A stretch of 64,000 nucleotides of DNA, taken from an uncultured Bacteroidales bacterium (GTDB taxonomy: Bacteria > Bacteroidota > Bacteroidia > Bacteroidales > Bacteroidaceae). Each line of letters opens with the position of its first letter. Positions within the stretch are counted from its first letter, which is position 1. A program made the position numbers and the translations under genes. The stretch covers positions 16,183 through 80,182 of the forward strand of contig CADCNQ010000006.1 of the NCBI GenBank assembly GCA_902802815.1. The letters run 5' to 3'. Under the pieces are notes generated by a model, which saw only the letters and a program-made list of their open reading frames with translations, did no database searches and was not told where the DNA came from. Of this stretch, positions 10,235 through 62,411 are shown piece by piece.

Positions 10235-12719
10235 TACGTCCCTTTATTTTTCCGCTGGTAGCGGTGAGCGTGAATTCTCCGCTACCGTCGGTCTCCACGA
10301 TGACTGTGCACTGACCGGAGAAGAGATGCATGCGAGGTTCCTGTAACGGATCCAATGAGGTGGGGTCGCCGTTTGCTGCTGCCTTGAAACGTGCGTTGCC
10401 GTTCACGGAGAATTCCACGAGGGCATTGCCATCGGGACACAGCACACCTTTTCTGTCCACCAACGATACGGTGATGTAGCAGAGATTGTCGCCCGGAGTG
10501 TAGTAGGAGGTCTGCAAATCCAGTCGGTGGGGCTTTGAAGCCGTGTGCTTTGTCGTCGTGTGTACGACGTTGCCCCCTGCATCAAGAAACTCTACCTTAA
10601 GCTCTCCTGCCTGATACGGCACATCCGGCCAGATAAGTCTGTAGCGCTTGAGAAGCCACAGGGGATCTTTGTCTTTCAGTGCCTCGCTTTCCTCGCGGGA
10701 GAGTTTGCGGACTTCTCCGTGCAGTTTGCCGTTGACGTAGAGCCGTGCTGCGGGACACTGGCTGTAGGCTACCACAGGAATGGTGTCACCCGCATTCCAA
10801 TTCCAGTGAGGCAGCACATGGAATGTGCCGGAATCGCGCCATTGGCTCTGATAGAGATAATAGCGGTCCTTGGGGATGGAGGCCAGGTCGATAATGCCGA
10901 ATAAGGAGGAATGACTGGGCCATGAGTCGGTGTCGTAGGGGGAAGGTTCTCCGAGGTAGTCGAAACCGGTCCACACAAACTGTCCCATCGTCCAGTCGAA
11001 GTCGTCCTGCAGACGGAAATCCTCGTCGGGGACATTACTCCACGAACATGCTTCGGTGTCGTAGCCGGAGGACTGATGACCGTCGTGTTTGGCACCTTTG
11101 CGCAGGGCGAAAGGAAGGTGGTACACACCGCGTGAGGATACTGTGGAGGCTGTCTCCGAACCGAGAATGAACTTTTGGGGGAGCGTCTCGTAGGCTTTCT
11201 CATAGAGATGTGTCCGATAGTTCAGGCCGGGAACATCCAGTGCATCGGCAAATCCGCTGCGCAAGACGTTTTGCACCTGATCCATGCCGCACGTCACGGG
11301 ACGGGTGGGGTCCTGCTCGTGACAGAAGAACTGCATGGCTTTCGCCAGTTCTTTGCCGTCCTCGCTGTGCTGCTGGGGAATCTCGTTACCGATGCTCCAC
11401 ATTACCACAGAGGGATGGTTGCGGAAATTCATTATCATATTTTTGATGTCGTGCTGAGCCCACACCATCGGGTATTCGGATTTTGGTGTGTCGGTCATCT
11501 CGTTGAACCAGCAATGATAGCCGTTCTTGCATTTGGCAACAGTCCATTCGTCGAAGGATTCCACCATAACCATCAGACCGATGGAGTCGCACAGCTCAAC
11601 CTGCTGCGGGTCGGGCATATTGTGGGCGGTGCGGATAGCGTCCGCTCCCATGTCTTTCAACATGAGAAGCTGGTGGCGCAGGGCGTCGCGGTGGACGGCA
11701 GTTCCGAGGGGACCAAGGTCGTGATGAAGGCACACACCGCGGAACTTGCGCTTCTCACCGTTGAGGAAGAATCCTTCTCCCTTTCTCAGTGTCACCTCCC
11801 TGATGCCGAAACTCGTGGTGAACGTGTCGACGACAACTCCGTTTTCTATGATGCGCGAGCAGGCACGGTAGAGATGCGGTGTCTCGGGGGTCCACAATTC
11901 GGGCTGCGGGACGCTGAAACGCTGGATCATCTCTGCGTTTCCGTCTGTTGCCGGAGATGTGAAGTCGGTGTTGGAAGCAACGATGTTTCCATTCCTGTCG
12001 AGGATGTTTGTCTCCACGATGATTTTATAAGAGGATGTCCCTGCGATGGCGGTGGTGAGAAGCACATCCCACGAGGACTCGTCTTTCGGGGTGGTGACGA
12101 TGCTCGTTCCCCACACGGGCACGTGCACCTTTGCGGCTGATATGAGGTGAACCCTGCGGAAAAGTCCTGCTCCGGGATACCAGCGGCTGCTCTCGCTGGG
12201 ATTGTTCAGGCGTATGGCCAGGATGTTGGTCTCGCCGTTGTCTTTGAGGTAGGGGGTGAGGTCAAAAGTATAACTGTTGTATCCGTAAGGCCATATGCCG
12301 AGGCGTTGTCCGTTGATGAAGACAAGGGAATGGGACATGGCACCATCAACAAGCAGTGTGACGGAACCTTTTGACTTGCCTGTCCCCTGAGGGGTGAGGA
12401 AGCGGGTGCGATACCAGCCAGTTCCCATCCAAGGCAGACCGCCAGTGCGACCGGTCTTCAATGTGGCAACGGATTCTCCGTTTTGCTTGACAGCAACGTT
12501 TTGTAAGTCGTTGTCTCCGGAAAACGGCATGGTGATAGCCCAGTCGTGGGGCACCTTTACCGGTTCCCACTGACTGTCGTCCAGATTTTCCTGTTCGCCT
12601 CCTTCCACTTCCCCGAGATGGAAACGCCATTCGGAAAGCAGTGAATCACGTCGTTCAACGGCAGAAATATTAATCAGAAAAAAACAAAGAAAAGCGGAAA
12701 TAAATAGAATATTTTTCAT
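10212..12719 (-). CDS. Secreted glycoside hydrolase family 2 (beta-galactosidase-like)
   Basis: Retaining exo-glycosidase of 835 residues. A signal peptide (MKNILFISAFLCFFLINISA) is followed by the GH2 sugar-binding domain (LPWMGTGWYRTRF, NGQRLGIWPYGYNSYTFDL), the Ig-like domain, and the TIM barrel with the acid/base in VVMWSIGNEIP (E446) and the nucleophile in ILGSETAST (E522). C-terminal beta domains complete it. The start at 12719 gives a proper signal peptide; the in-frame ATG at 12740 sits almost on the -7 box. The enzyme probably acts in the periplasm or outside. Beta-galactosidase is the likeliest activity, but GH2 also includes glucuronidases and mannosidases. Confidence 0.9.
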   Translation of the reverse strand: MKNILFISAFLCFFLINISAVERRDSLLSEWRFHLGEVEGGEQENLDDSQWEPVKVPHDWAITMPFSGDNDLQNVAVKQNGESVATLKTGRTGGLPWMGTGWYRTRFLTPQGTGKSKGSVTLLVDGAMSHSLVFINGQRLGIWPYGYNSYTFDLTPYLKDNGETNILAIRLNNPSESSRWYPGAGLFRRVHLISAAKVHVPVWGTSIVTTPKDESSWDVLLTTAIAGTSSYKIIVETNILDRNGNIVASNTDFTSPATDGNAEMIQRFSVPQPELWTPETPHLYRACSRIIENGVVVDTFTTSFGIREVTLRKGEGFFLNGEKRKFRGVCLHHDLGPLGTAVHRDALRHQLLMLKDMGADAIRTAHNMPDPQQVELCDSIGLMVMVESFDEWTVAKCKNGYHCWFNEMTDTPKSEYPMVWAQHDIKNMIMNFRNHPSVVMWSIGNEIPQQHSEDGKELAKAMQFFCHEQDPTRPVTCGMDQVQNVLRSGFADALDVPGLNYRTHLYEKAYETLPQKFILGSETASTVSSRGVYHLPFALRKGAKHDGHQSSGYDTEACSWSNVPDEDFRLQDDFDWTMGQFVWTGFDYLGEPSPYDTDSWPSHSSLFGIIDLASIPKDRYYLYQSQWRDSGTFHVLPHWNWNAGDTIPVVAYSQCPAARLYVNGKLHGEVRKLSREESEALKDKDPLWLLKRYRLIWPDVPYQAGELKVEFLDAGGNVVHTTTKHTASKPHRLDLQTSYYTPGDNLCYITVSLVDRKGVLCPDGNALVEFSVNGNARFKAAANGDPTSLDPLQEPRMHLFSGQCTVIVETDGSGEFTLTATSGKIKGRITVPANR

Positions 12720-58137: not shown

Positions 58138-58824
58138 ATGAAAATCCTTGTAGTTGATGACGAGCAGGATATCTGCGAGATACTGCAGTATAACCTGGAA
58201 ACAGAAGGATATGAGGTTTTGACGGCAAACTCTGCAGAGGAGGCTATGGAGATTCCTGTCAAGGAGTATGGACTTATCCTTCTTGATGTGATGATGGGCG
58301 AAATGTCCGGGTTTCAATTGGCGAGACGGTTAAAAGAGAACCCGGAAACGGCTCAGATTCCCATTATCTTTATCACTGCTTTGGACGACGAGGACAACAC
58401 CGTCAAGGGACTCAACATCGGTGCAGATGACTATATCGCCAAGCCACTGTCAATAAAAGAGGTGAAAGCAAGAGTGAAGGCGGTTTTACGTCGCGCTGAG
58501 CCGCGCGGGAGGACAGTGGCCTCATCTGTTCCCCAAACACTTCGCTACGAGGGCATCACATTGAACCTTGATGCTAAAACGGCCACACTTGATGGCACGG
58601 AACTCTTGCTCACAAAATTGGAGTTTGAGTTGTTGACCATCTTCCTGCAGAATCCCGGAAGGCTGTTCAGTCGTGATGATCTCCTGGAGCGTTGCTGGCC
58701 GCACGGAGTCTATGTGCTTGACCGTACGGTAGATGTCAATATCACGCGGCTGCGCAAGAAAATCGGTAGTTATGGCAAGCAAATAAAAACCCGCGTGGGA
58801 TATGGCTACTGTTTTGAGAAGTAG
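58138..58824 (+). CDS. OmpR/PhoB-family response regulator
   Basis: 228 residues. Receiver domain MKILVVDDEQDICEILQYNL with phospho-acceptor D50 (LILLDVMMG), Thr/Lys switch residues in FITALDD and YIAKPLSIKEVKARVKAVLR. A winged-helix effector follows (LLTKLEFELLTIFLQNPGRL, RTVDVNITRLRKKIG, RVGYGYCFEK). It overlaps the kinase gene by 23 bp. A Na/Pi cotransporter lies next to the pair and carries a Pho-box-like array in its promoter, so a PhoB role is the best guess, though RprY-like regulators also look like this. Confidence 0.9.
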   Translation: MKILVVDDEQDICEILQYNLETEGYEVLTANSAEEAMEIPVKEYGLILLDVMMGEMSGFQLARRLKENPETAQIPIIFITALDDEDNTVKGLNIGADDYIAKPLSIKEVKARVKAVLRRAEPRGRTVASSVPQTLRYEGITLNLDAKTATLDGTELLLTKLEFELLTIFLQNPGRLFSRDDLLERCWPHGVYVLDRTVDVNITRLRKKIGSYGKQIKTRVGYGYCFEK

Positions 58825-60238
58825 GTCGTTCCGGAAGAATCTGCTCTTCCGCATAGGCGGCGTGTTCCTGTTGTTCGCCATTTGTTTCAGTGTGTACCAG
58901 TATCAGCGTGAGAAGAAGTTTAAGATTGACATCCTCCATTCGCGCTTGCAGATGTACAACTATGAGATGCTGCAGACGCTGACAAAAGACAGCCTCGCTA
59001 ATCCGCATCTGTTTTATGACTATGTACGCCGTCATAACGTGGAGGGCCTTCGCGTATCGGTAATAAATAAGGATGGACGAGTGATTCTTGACAGTTACGA
59101 CACAAAGCTTGATTCCTTGGACAACCATCTTCAGCGAGCGGAGATCCTGCAGGCGTTACGTGCAGGAAACGGCTACGACATCAAACGTACTTCACAATCT
59201 ACGCACGAGACGTATTTCTACTCCGCTACACGTTTTGGGGACCTCATTGTGCGTGCTGCCGTGCCTTATTCTGCCGAACTTACCCAATCTCTGCAAGCAG
59301 ACAACACGTACATCTGGTTTGCCGTCGTCCTCACGTTTCTGCTCGGAGTTGTTCTCTACCTCAGCACCAGTCGCATCAGCCGTCACATCGGTTATCTGCG
59401 AGAGTTTGCAGTCAGGGCCGAAGAGGGGAAGGAGCCCGACCGAGAACTGGAACGGCGTCTGCCTGATGATGAGTTGAGCGACATCAGCCACACCATCATC
59501 CATTTGTATTGGAAACTGCGTCACTCTGAGGAGGAGAAAGTGCGTATCAAACGGCAGCTGACGCAGAATGCCGCTCATGAGCTTAAGACTCCGGCTGCCA
59601 GCATTCACGGCTACTTGGAGAGCATTCTCGACAATCCCGGTATGCCGGCCGACAAGCGTCAGCACTTCCTGGAGCGTTGTTATGCGCAAAGTGAGCGTAT
59701 GAACAAGCTGCTGCTCGACATGAGTGTTTTAACGAAGCTGGACGAGCCGGATGAATCCAAGCGTCAGGAGCATCGTCGGGTCAATGTTCTCTCCGTCATT
59801 CAAAGCGTTCTTGACGATACTGCTTTACAGATGCAGGTCAAAGGTCTGGCGACATCGCTCAATGTGCCTGAGAGTGTGGAGGTGACAGGAGATCAAAGTC
59901 TCATCTACAGCGTCTTCCGAAACATTATTGATAACGCTATTGCATATGCTGCAGGTGCCACATGTCTGAAGATTGTGTGTCTCGAGGTGCAGGACGAAGG
60001 CCGCCACTATTATGAATTCGATGTGAGCGACAACGGTCAGGGTGTGGCCCCAGAGCACCTTGAGCATCTTTTTGAGCGTTTCTACCGTGTTGACAAGGGA
60101 CGTTCGCGCAAGTTTGGGGGAACAGGTCTTGGTCTTGCCATCGTGAAAAACGCTGTTGCCGCCCACGGAGGAACTGCAACTGCATTCAACACCTCCGGCG
60201 GAGGCCTGACCGTCAGGTTTACACTGGCGAGGTATTAA
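58802..60238 (+). CDS. Membrane sensor histidine kinase (PhoR-like)
   Basis: 478 residues. Two membrane helices (about 18-36 and 175-195) flank a periplasmic region of about 140 residues with PAS-like text VSVINKDGRVILDSYD. Then come a HAMP-like linker, HisKA with NAAHELKTPAASIHGYLESI (H259), and HATPase_c with FRNIIDNAIAYA (N box), DVSDNGQGVAPEH (G1) and FGGTGLGLAIVKNAV (G2). It pairs with the regulator in front of it. Its last 4 bases overlap the convergent Na/Pi cotransporter gene. The sensed signal is inferred, not shown. Confidence 0.92.
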   Translation: MATVLRSRSFRKNLLFRIGGVFLLFAICFSVYQYQREKKFKIDILHSRLQMYNYEMLQTLTKDSLANPHLFYDYVRRHNVEGLRVSVINKDGRVILDSYDTKLDSLDNHLQRAEILQALRAGNGYDIKRTSQSTHETYFYSATRFGDLIVRAAVPYSAELTQSLQADNTYIWFAVVLTFLLGVVLYLSTSRISRHIGYLREFAVRAEEGKEPDRELERRLPDDELSDISHTIIHLYWKLRHSEEEKVRIKRQLTQNAAHELKTPAASIHGYLESILDNPGMPADKRQHFLERCYAQSERMNKLLLDMSVLTKLDEPDESKRQEHRRVNVLSVIQSVLDDTALQMQVKGLATSLNVPESVEVTGDQSLIYSVFRNIIDNAIAYAAGATCLKIVCLEVQDEGRHYYEFDVSDNGQGVAPEHLEHLFERFYRVDKGRSRKFGGTGLGLAIVKNAVAAHGGTATAFNTSGGGLTVRFTLARY

Positions 60239-61944
60239 TGCCGCCCGTAATAGGCTCTGTCCTCGTAGTCGTTATTCATCCCTTTCCCTGCCTGAACGAC
60301 GTTCATGACATAATCTCCCAGTTTTTCGCATTCGGAGATGAAGTCAACGTAGAAGACACCGAGCTGGTAGCTGTACAGGCCGGAGTTGACATCTTGCAGA
60401 TTCTGGTTTTTCAGCTGCGTGCGGTAGTTGTTGATTTCGTGCTCAATGTTGATGCTGGTGGTGATGCTGTTTTTCGCTGCCGAACCGTCCATACGCTTCA
60501 ACATGGTTCTGAGAGCGTTTTCCACCAGTTGCATCATCGACTCCATGTGCTGCGTCTGTTTGGCGGTGAACGCCTCCGGACAATGCTGACGATGGCGGTT
60601 GAGTGTACGGCCGAGATTATACACCGAGTCGCCGATGCTCTCCAGTTCCGTTATCTGCTTCAACATCTTCTGTATCTGACCCTTTGATGTATCCGACAGG
60701 CGGCCTTCGCTCACTTTTTTCAGATATGAGGCTATCTCCATCTCCATCGAGTCGGTGATGTGCTCATACTTCTCGACGCGTGTGAAGAGTTTGTTGAATT
60801 CTGTCTCGTCGTCCGTCTTCATCAGGGCGGGAATGAATCCGAACATCCGCTGACAGCGTTCCGCGAAATGCTGTACCTCCTTCTGTGCCTCAATGATGCA
60901 GAGTTCGGCAGTAGAGAGCAAACCGCCGCTGATATACTTCAGACGGTAATCTTCCTCCTTCTCCTTTGCAGGCAACACCTTGCAGACGAAGCGCTCAATC
61001 TGTCTTACAAAACCGATGAGCAGCAGCGTGTTGATGATGTTGAAGGCCGTGTGGAAGGCTGAAAGTTTGTAGAGTTCGTTACCGTCTCCCGTCAATGTGT
61101 CTACAAACCAGTTGACGGCGTTGCATGCCGGATAAAACGCGATGAGGAACACCACGACGCCAAATACGTTGAAAAACATGTGGGCAAGAGCTGCACGGCG
61201 TGCCTGTATGTTGGCTGTGAGCGAGGCCATGAAAGCTGTGACGGTCGTACCGATGTTCTGACCCATCGCTAGGGCGGCGGCCTGTTCGAATCCGAAGCCC
61301 GCAATGTTCATGCCGAAAAGCATCAGTGTGATGGCCATTGCGGCAGATGAAGACTGTACGATCATCGTGACCAATGCGCCTACAATAATAAACAATATGA
61401 TGGTGAAGAACGAACTCTGAGGCACATGAGCCAGCAGGTTGGCAACCATATCGCCTATGTGCATCGTCGTTGCCGTCTCCTGCAGGAACGACAGCCCCAT
61501 GAACAGGAGCGAGAAGCCGAAGACAAACTCACCGACACTTTTCCGATTGCCCTTACTGCTGAAAATCAACGGCATGCCAACGGCAAGCAATGGAATGGAA
61601 AAGGCGGCGATATTGACTTTGAAACCCACGGCAGAGATGATCCACGCCGTTACCGTCGTGCCGATGTTGGCACCCATGATGACACCGATGCTCTGTGCAA
61701 GCGTCATCAGTCCGGCATTCACAAAACTCACCACCATCACCGTCGTGGCGCTGGACGACTGGATGAGTGCCGTAATCAGAATACCCGTCAGCACGCCCAT
61801 CACCCGATTCTTTGTCATCGCCGCAAGGATGCTGCGCAGACGCTCGCCGGCAAATTTCTCAAGGCCCTCCGACATCGTTTTCATGCCATAAAGGAACAAT
61901 GCCAATGAACCGACGAGTGAAAAGATGTTGATCATGAATTCCAT
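60235..61944 (-). CDS. Na+/phosphate cotransporter family protein with C-terminal PhoU-like domain
   Basis: 569 residues. The N-terminal half has two inverted Na/Pi-cotransporter repeats with the signature QSSSATTVMVVSFVNAG and IVQSSSAAMAITLMLFG, and about eight to nine helices. The C-terminal half (about 345-560) is cytoplasmic and helical, with PhoU-like text (MKTDDETEFNKLFTRVEKYE, ITELESIGDSVYNLGRTL). Such fusions (NptA/YjbB type) move phosphate in or out. The promoter region holds a -7 box (61968-61961) and an 11-bp repeat array that fits PhoB control. The start MEFMINIF at 61944 is 17 bp beyond the -7 box. Confidence 0.92.
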   Translation of the reverse strand: MEFMINIFSLVGSLALFLYGMKTMSEGLEKFAGERLRSILAAMTKNRVMGVLTGILITALIQSSSATTVMVVSFVNAGLMTLAQSIGVIMGANIGTTVTAWIISAVGFKVNIAAFSIPLLAVGMPLIFSSKGNRKSVGEFVFGFSLLFMGLSFLQETATTMHIGDMVANLLAHVPQSSFFTIILFIIVGALVTMIVQSSSAAMAITLMLFGMNIAGFGFEQAAALAMGQNIGTTVTAFMASLTANIQARRAALAHMFFNVFGVVVFLIAFYPACNAVNWFVDTLTGDGNELYKLSAFHTAFNIINTLLLIGFVRQIERFVCKVLPAKEKEEDYRLKYISGGLLSTAELCIIEAQKEVQHFAERCQRMFGFIPALMKTDDETEFNKLFTRVEKYEHITDSMEMEIASYLKKVSEGRLSDTSKGQIQKMLKQITELESIGDSVYNLGRTLNRHRQHCPEAFTAKQTQHMESMMQLVENALRTMLKRMDGSAAKNSITTSINIEHEINNYRTQLKNQNLQDVNSGLYSYQLGVFYVDFISECEKLGDYVMNVVQAGKGMNNDYEDRAYYGRH

Positions 61945-61960
61945 ATTCTTCTTTTTGCTG

Positions 61961-61968
61961 CAAAGGTA
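61961..61968 (-). promoter_or_regulatory. -7 box of the Na/Pi cotransporter gene
   Basis: The minus strand reads TACCTTTG (TAnnTTTG), 17 bp before the ATG. The usual -33 position is occupied by the 11-bp repeat array. Confidence 0.7.
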
Positions 61969-62017
61969 TGACCTTCCTGTTACATCCCCGTTACGCCGAT
62001 GTTACAATCCTGTGACA
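61968..62017 (-). promoter_or_regulatory. Pho-box-like array: four to five direct repeats, exact 11-bp period
   Basis: On the minus strand TGTCAC (62017-62012), TGTAAC (62006-62001), CGTAAC (61995-61990) and TGTAAC (61984-61979) are spaced exactly 11 bp. A degenerate fifth unit GGTCAT (61973-61968) touches the -7 box. The E. coli PhoB box is a pair of CTGTCAT/CTGTMAY units with an 11-bp period that replaces the -35 box; position and text agree here. Confidence 0.7.
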
Positions 62018-62029
62018 ATCGCCGCCGGA

Positions 62030-62103
62030 GCTGCCATGCGTGGCAGCAGTAGCAGGCGGACGGAGTGAAATGATTCTTTTCAGAGGTCGCGATTTACGAC
62101 CTC
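62030..62103. repeat. Two perfect short hairpins
   Basis: GCTGCCA (62030-62036) pairs with TGGCAGC (62041-62047) over TGCG. GAGGTCG (62083-62089) pairs with CGACCTC (62097-62103) over 7 bases and is followed on the plus strand by a T/C-rich run (AGTTTATCTTTTCTTTT). No gene covers them. They may be a weak terminator or part of a small RNA. Confidence 0.5.
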
Positions 62104-62138
62104 AGTTTATCTTTTCTTTTCTCACATTTCCACCTTTC

Positions 62139-62204
62139 ATCTATCGGGCATCTATCGGGCATCTATCGGGCATCTATCGGAAATCTATCGGGAATCTATC
62201 GGAA
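62139..62204. repeat. Six tandem 11-bp repeats (ATCTATCGGNN)
   Basis: Units at 62139, 62150, 62161, 62172, 62183 and 62194: the first nine bases ATCTATCGG are identical in all six, followed by GC, GC, GC, AA, GA, AA. There are no spacers, so this is not a CRISPR. The period of one helical turn suggests protein binding on one face of DNA. The gene-free region 61945-62411 also holds the Pho-like array, the hairpins, a pair of 13-bp TACCTTGTCTACT repeats (about 62260-62300), a weak terminator-like hairpin (about 62298-62330) and a heptad tract (62343-62372). Confidence 0.85.
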
Positions 62205-62381
62205 AATCCCGACAGATGATCGATATGTAATAGAGACATGATACTACGCACCTGGAGATTTACCTTGTCTACTCGTCCACTTGTTACCTTGTCTACTAAA
62301 AATGCCATCCTTGAGGGTGACTTTTTTTGCTTTTAACATAATTCTCTAACCTCTAACCACTAAACTCTAATCTGTTTCTCG

Positions 62382-62389
62382 TATCTTTG
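62382..62389 (+). promoter_or_regulatory. -7 box of the exported flavin-reductase-like gene
   Basis: TATCTTTG lies 22 bp before the ATG at 62412. No TTTG is seen at the -33 distance; the heptad tract 62343-62372 covers that position. Confidence 0.5.
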
Positions 62390-62411
62390 CGCCAGCAAAA
62401 TCCAATGTACT

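Follow-up and report, generated by a model that had tools for sequence, protein, structure and literature searches.

Genes and promoter elements at the nptA2 locus

The window, by which we mean the whole stretch of 64,000 nucleotides that was analysed, encodes a PhoB-type response regulator (phoB, 228 aa; 58138..58824, plus strand) and a PhoR-type sensor histidine kinase (phoR, 478 aa; 58802..60238, plus strand). The phoR gene overlaps phoB and is convergent with a gene on the minus strand (60235..61944) for an NptA-type Na/Pi symporter of 569 aa with a C-terminal PhoU domain, which we have named NptA2. The regulator passes NF053854, the NCBIfam model for Bacteroides PhoB, at 334.7 bits (cut-off 270) and does not reach the cut-off of TIGR02154, a PhoB model (215.8 against 296.2 bits); the kinase, in which HisKA and HATPase_c domains were found, passes the NCBIfam model for Bacteroides PhoR, NF053855, at 535.6 bits (cut-off 500). 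By sequence, the nearest PDB chains to the DNA-binding domain of PhoB are those of Escherichia coli PhoB (3t72, 1qqi and 1gxp), and the stretch VYVLDRTVDVNITRLRKKI, which we take to be the recognition helix, is identical to the E. coli residues that align opposite it, VYVEDRTVDVHIRRLRKAL, at 14 of 19 positions. NptA2 scores 234.7 bits against TIGR00704 (cut-off 210.1) and 205 against NF037997 (cut-off 50), with whole-protein scores of 199.7 bits for PF02690 (Na_Pi_cotrans; cut-off 29.1) and 29.7 for PF01895 (PhoU; cut-off 23.5). A preliminary description of this DNA had placed a regulator at 58138-58824 as part of a PhoBR-like pair beside a Na/Pi cotransporter; the coordinates proved correct, and the model scores bear out both the pair and the transporter.

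Upstream of nptA2, and on the same strand, lies a direct-repeat array of five units (61968..62017, minus strand), which we designate a predicted Pho box from its sequence, its score relative to simulated windows and its layout in relatives. On the minus strand it has the form TGTCAC-N5-TGTAAC-N5-CGTAAC-N5-TGTAAC-N5-GGTCAT with exact 11-nt steps, the units occupying 62017-62012 (TGTCAC), 62006-62001 (TGTAAC), 61995-61990 (CGTAAC), 61984-61979 (TGTAAC) and 61973-61968 (GGTCAT). The minus-strand letters from the array to the -7 box are TGTCACaggat TGTAACatcgg CGTAACgggga TGTAACaggaa GGTCATACCTTTG. The -7 box itself, TACCTTTG (61961..61968, minus strand), was typed by its agreement with TAnnTTTG, which we take to be the Bacteroidota -7 consensus; it shares one base with unit 5, is separated from unit 4 by 10 nt, and is followed after 16 nt by the ATG of nptA2 at 61944. 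No ORF of at least 80 aa was found in 61945-62411. At approximately 62141-62205, between the nptA2 promoter and a flavin-reductase-like gene, there is a run of short, nearly identical units of the catctatcggg type.

Scored over four units against TGTMAC, the array reaches 23 out of 24. The further high scores in the window (21, two of 19, one of 18 and one of 17) come from the same array in other registers or on the opposite strand, and the best score elsewhere is 18 (plus strand, position 403). Among 150 simulated windows of the same length, generated with an order-1 Markov model, none exceeded 19. The five units at exact 11-bp steps, with the fifth touching the -7 box, are thus as the preliminary description had given them, and none of the simulated windows reached their score.

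Conservation of the array upstream of related transporter genes

At least 20 of the 149 genomes of a neighbouring genus, here called g5, contain an NptA2 ortholog that is 80% or more identical. Nineteen of those given a locus are near full length and one is of 493 aa; a 301-aa fragment in genome G386 was given no locus. The array was present at all 20 scored loci, with scores of 19-23 out of 24, and stands 74-84 nt before the gene start, while seven g5 loci at which identity to NptA2 is 63-71% scored 13-17. NptA2 is 81-84% identical to its g5 counterparts and at most 70% identical to the full-length copies in 17 searched genomes of its own genus; this may reflect lateral transfer of the phoBR-nptA2 block or misbinning of the contig.

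A wider scan of named genomes, from which the best 80 of 486 loci were taken, gave loci that are mostly titled Prevotella or Prevotellaceae, many of them from ruminant gut by title. Xylanibacter brevis ATCC 19188 (L266), Prevotella communis E15-14 (L283), and Prevotella sp. tf2-5 (L254) and MA2016 (L262) are among them. Sixty of these best 80 loci have at least 79% identity to NptA2; 59 could be scored, and 55 of the 59 scored at least 19. Of the four lower scorers, L298 lacks a gene start and L301 has the array, which was lost through a misestimated start; at L268 and L299 no array was seen within the 200 nt upstream that were examined.

To derive a footprint, promoters were anchored on the -7 box only and the array was not used for alignment. 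The set comprised the 59 loci and the window, minus L268 and L299 (no array), L298 and L301 (start missing or misplaced), L264 (array 161 nt from the estimated start) and nine duplicates with identical last 100 nt, leaving 46 promoters; because L268 and L299 were left out, the footprint describes array-bearing promoters and not the frequency of the array. Relative to the initial T of the -7 box, the units are TGTAAC at -49, TGTAAY at -38, YGTAAC at -27, YGTAAC at -16 and TGTAAT at -5. With a unit scored as present at four or more of six matches, the first four occur together in 42 of the 46 promoters and all five in 32; the -16 unit is present in 45 and unit 5 in 35. Position 4 of the unit is nearly always A in the relatives, and the clade unit is therefore YGTAAC rather than the TGTMAC of the preliminary description. 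Autocorrelation of conservation is weak (0.22 at a lag of 11 nt, 0.25 at a lag of 12), since conserved bases in the spacers blur the signal, and it is the register that carries the argument. A further element, GGTTAC at -64 to -59, is conserved in many relatives; it is outside the 11-nt register and absent from the window.

We also looked for TTTG in the -33 position, 19-27 nt upstream of the -7 box, and found it in none of the 46 promoters, that of the window included. As judged from these alignments, the array takes the place of the -33 element, as the preliminary description had proposed, and this layout is conserved; the missing TTTG makes the promoter look activator-dependent.

A reading in which the array arose by chance or as a selfish repeat, with no regulatory use, would fit some exact TGTCAC triples found elsewhere, which by eye lie in repetitive intergenic DNA (L030, L031, L038 and L050-L054). 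It is opposed by the simulated windows, and by the fact that across the 46 promoters the units are conserved but the third spacer is free to vary (spacers 1 and 4 show partial conservation). We consider this reading to have next to no chance of being correct.

Linkage of the array with phoBR

Of 20 g5 regions fetched, 19 have phoB and phoR tail to tail with nptA2, the gap ranging from a few nt to approximately 2 kb (L211); at L194 neither gene is beside nptA2. Five other genes of the window had no match as neighbours in the 20 regions, and in the 4 kb on the side of nptA2 away from phoBR even the commonest ORF family was seen at only 3 of 18 loci (L194 and L200 being left out). The block of phoBR and nptA2 is thus conserved while its surroundings change. 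At 3 of 18 loci within L192-L211 an ORF that appears Pit-like by eye lies near nptA2, beyond its promoter.

We then scored co-occurrence in the 72 informative loci of the best 80 of 486 from named genomes, taking an array as a score of at least 19 and phoB as a match of more than 55% identity in the fetched flank, some flanks being shortened by contig ends. The loci L244, L252, L257, L260, L264, L272, L295 and L298 were uninformative on account of contig ends, a missing start or short upstream DNA. Array and phoB were both present at 50 loci and both absent at 16; phoB alone was found at four (L268, L301, L316 and L322) and the array alone at two (L271 and L318), giving a Fisher p of 1.6e-10, a value that overstates the evidence because related species are counted as independent. 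On closer inspection L301 belongs with the loci that have both. L268 is a case of phoBR beside nptA2 without an array, and L271 and L318 are arrays without a nearby phoB. The loci L314 and L315, Paludibacteraceae by title, have a phoB of 61-62% identity in the order nptA-phoB-phoR and the same array in both, and are a more independent case of the linkage. Copies of NptA with approximately 50% identity lie directly beside phoB in two further genomes, neither of which has a close NptA2 (G194:C1:2470533-2472940 and G382:C1:137210-139659); linkage between PhoB and NptA therefore recurs with different paralogs.

Use of the array by some other OmpR-family regulator, and not by the neighbouring PhoB, has to be weighed here. 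Direct repeats of 11 nt are usual for this family, and g5 genomes contain from 3 to at least 18 matches to the PhoB model (E 0.001), which would give room for such a regulator. The fact that array and phoB adjacency go together speaks against it, as do the genes that follow arrays elsewhere in the family (below), and we regard it as quite improbable.

Arrays recovered without reference to nptA2

Searching for exact triples of TGTMAC at 11-nt steps, with no use of nptA, gave 25 places in 21 of 298 family genomes; a reversed control pattern gave 6 matches in 6 of the 298. Ten of the 25 triples precede a recognisable phosphate gene: nptA2 in four cases (L045-L048), PHO4/Pit in three (L032, L040 and L042), a PstC-like permease of the BPD type that has a PBP-like part in two (L033 and L039), and phoU, 315 nt away, in one (L036). 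None of the six reversed matches has a phosphate-like gene downstream, as judged from ORFs. It is the triples before pit, pstC-type and phoU genes that bear on the choice of regulator, pointing to PhoB and away from another member of the family.

Three triples (L034, L035 and L037, all in Bacteroides-like genomes) precede TonB-dependent receptors, which are possible phosphate-linked outer-membrane uptake systems. For the other 12 of the 25 no phosphate or TonB gene was recognised downstream, and several are in stretches that are repetitive by eye; these 12 include one array counted in two registers (L050 and L053), L041, which has no Pfam match, and L031, which was judged without Pfam. Three places in g5 genomes (L043, L044 and L049, at approximately 1501-1528) have a TGTAAC triple followed by a run of the atttcgttt type with no clear ORF close downstream; these stretches might represent a small RNA under regulation, or a family of repeats.

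A class-wide box was also considered and dropped, as exact triples were found in 1 of 396 genomes of a class-level sample, in which the reversed control gave 3 matches; the 12 family members in that sample had no exact triple.

In the genome from which the window comes (2.46 Mb, 96.8% complete), a whole-genome search with a three-unit pattern and up to two mismatches matched only two overlapping registers of the nptA2 array, and the reversed control gave one match. With no second array at this threshold a wider Pho regulon is not demonstrated there, and we dropped the idea of one. The scan for further arrays that the preliminary description had suggested was therefore empty in the window's own genome and productive in the family, before pit, pstC-type and phoU genes. 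The same genome gave no match above cut-off for PstB, the Pst ATPase, for which 13 of 14 control genomes pass, and no PHO4/Pit match of any kind, a test that 10 of 14 pass. The genome has two genes of NptA type: NptA2 lies in the window and NptA1, 51% identical to it, on contig C33. Upstream of NptA1 no array was found (best three-unit score 12 out of 18); likewise, the regions upstream of NptA-type genes of approximately 50% identity in 19 g5 genomes scored 10-13, the higher of these scores falling inside a divergent coding gene.

Comparison with Bacteroides fragilis

Work on B. fragilis YCH46 demonstrated binding of PhoB to a 512-bp fragment of the pstC promoter and a requirement for phoB in the expression of pstC (PMC3547664); the portion of that paper dealing with the pst promoter gives no box. 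We scanned 400 kb, on both strands, of chromosome G246, presumably that of B. fragilis NCTC 9343, for three-unit arrays. The best array, TGTAACAGAAACGTAACAGGTTTGAAAC, scores 16 out of 18, with the next elsewhere at 14, and its first base is 86 nt before the start of a pstC match (82% identical to L033), downstream of which, on the same strand, is a phoU match (85% to L036). We infer that this array is the site bound by B. fragilis PhoB, which would lend indirect support to the predicted binding of phosphorylated PhoB at the nptA2 array. An inverted TGTAAC-type pair was also noticed by eye on the opposite strand of a B. fragilis-type pst intergenic region (L340, approximately 10370-10395).

The same study offers a reason to ask whether PhoB might bind the array and yet repress nptA2, a full array shutting out RNA polymerase at low phosphate. 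Expression of BF4351, a Na+-dependent Pi transporter, is 101-fold lower at low Pi in the wild type but does not change in the phoB mutant (PMC3547664, Table 2), so that the fall occurs only with phoB; in addition, unit 5 shares a base with the -7 box and is kept, at four or more of six matches, in the 35 promoters noted above. The evidence on the other side is of several kinds. The strongest units precede the -7 box, unit 4 ending 10 nt short of it, and the missing -33 TTTG gives the promoter its activator-dependent look. The array in G246 stands before pstC, a gene whose expression needs phoB in B. fragilis (PMC3547664). Finally, G246 has one NptA match, 59% identical, that is likely to be the BF4351 homolog and a different copy from NptA2, and the only array-like run upstream of it (14 out of 18) forms the 5' end of a divergent gene's coding region. 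Repression of nptA2 by PhoB is on this basis unlikely, though less so than the other alternatives considered here, and PhoB may lower one NptA and, on the reading proposed below, raise another.

A separate repressor geometry was examined and rejected. A run of the form TGCAAC-N5-TGTAAC-N5-TTTCAT just after a -7-like box, TATTTTTG, is found in Bacteroides-like genomes and at many NptA1 copies, and it would have fitted the published fall in BF4351. Translation of L173 and L164 showed that a divergent gene's coding sequence begins with this run (MKQMLQIYCKNNNISKEFPIGSS and the like); coding explains its conservation, and the idea was dropped.

Discussion

We propose, in agreement with the preliminary description, that the array before nptA2 is a Pho box used by the neighbouring PhoB to activate the gene at low phosphate, a reading to which we assign a probability of roughly 0.83. 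The proposal draws on features of the DNA itself, namely the repeats, their constant register relative to the -7 box, the lack of a -33 element, the conserved layout, the linkage with phoBR and the repeats before pit, pstC-type and phoU genes in the family; from these we infer PhoB as the binder, activation as the effect and low phosphate as the signal. In mechanistic terms, PhoB~P produced by the adjoining phoBR pair would bind the 11-nt direct repeats head to tail, the four full units seating two PhoB dimers and the weaker fifth unit running into the -7 box. Bound PhoB would then recruit RNA polymerase to the TACCTTTG promoter, and nptA2 would be switched on under phosphate scarcity.

A more ambitious possibility is that phoB, phoR and nptA2 together with the array form a self-contained phosphate homeostat, in which PhoB drives almost only nptA2 and the PhoU tail of the transporter provides feedback to PhoR, taking over from the Pst-PhoU sensor complex in bacteria that have lost Pst and Pit. 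This suggestion arises because, according to the accessible portion of PMC13170248, the PhoU domain of Staphylococcus aureus NptA modulates PhoPR activity and loss of the PhoU tail can raise PhoPR-dependent expression. We put it forward tentatively, and consider the odds to be somewhat against it.

Control by PhoB was already known in Bacteroides; the present analysis adds a concrete predicted box, YGTAAC at 11-nt steps and 10 nt before TAnnTTTG. It illustrates how a Pho box can be fitted to the unusual promoter of the Bacteroidota, would permit prediction of regulons in related genera, and suggests a minimal phosphate circuit in Prevotella relatives of the rumen. The preliminary description had also stated that no Pho box was described for this group. 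For Bacteroidales this agrees with our search of the open-access literature, in which we found no Pho box sequence, while for the phylum a related motif is in print, the nearest being TTTAACA of Riemerella anatipestifer PhoP (available part of PMC9603813). Elsewhere, Pho boxes are predicted near plcP in marine bacteria, with no sequence given in the part of PMC4796936 that was available; the terms Pho box and motif do not occur in the corresponding part of PMC8115612, and in that of PMC3160421 the mention is limited to a reference title.

The E. coli PHO box stands in for the upstream promoter element, and the array described here resembles it in its 11-nt direct repeats, its GT-A core and its position before phosphate-uptake genes. 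It differs in its unit, YGTAAC, in having four to five units in one run, and in being set against the Bacteroidota -7 box TAnnTTTG and not the sigma70 -10 hexamer. The consensus given for E. coli in the accessible text of PMC4415409 is CTGTCAT, in two 11-nt direct repeats bound by PhoB, and the array does not match it; as the same text states that the Pho box consensus differs among species, we did not take this mismatch as excluding a Pho box.

Within the Bacteroidota, one likeness is to the PhoRB system of B. fragilis, with which the window shares a Bacteroides-type PhoB and PhoR and, in G246, a TGTAAC array before pstC. It differs in that G246 has a single NptA match and that BF4351 falls at low phosphate. 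Riemerella PhoP is likewise an OmpR-family regulator of the Bacteroidota, and its DAP-seq motif TTTAACA, present at 579 of 583 peaks, is one base from TGTAACA. The available portion of PMC9603813 describes this PhoP as ArcA-like, with its pair raised in phosphate starvation, and links it to virulence and to the Bat operon; that portion reports no 11-nt array or phosphate-gene box and does not mention pst.

Outside the phylum, S. aureus also has an NptA-type symporter with a C-terminal PhoU domain that is tied to a PhoBR-type pair. In that organism Pst, Pit, PhoU and PitR coexist, according to the part of PMC13170248 available, whereas no Pst ATPase or Pit was found in the genome of the window. 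The transporter gene of the window is also, unlike the S. aureus case as presented there, linked to phoBR.
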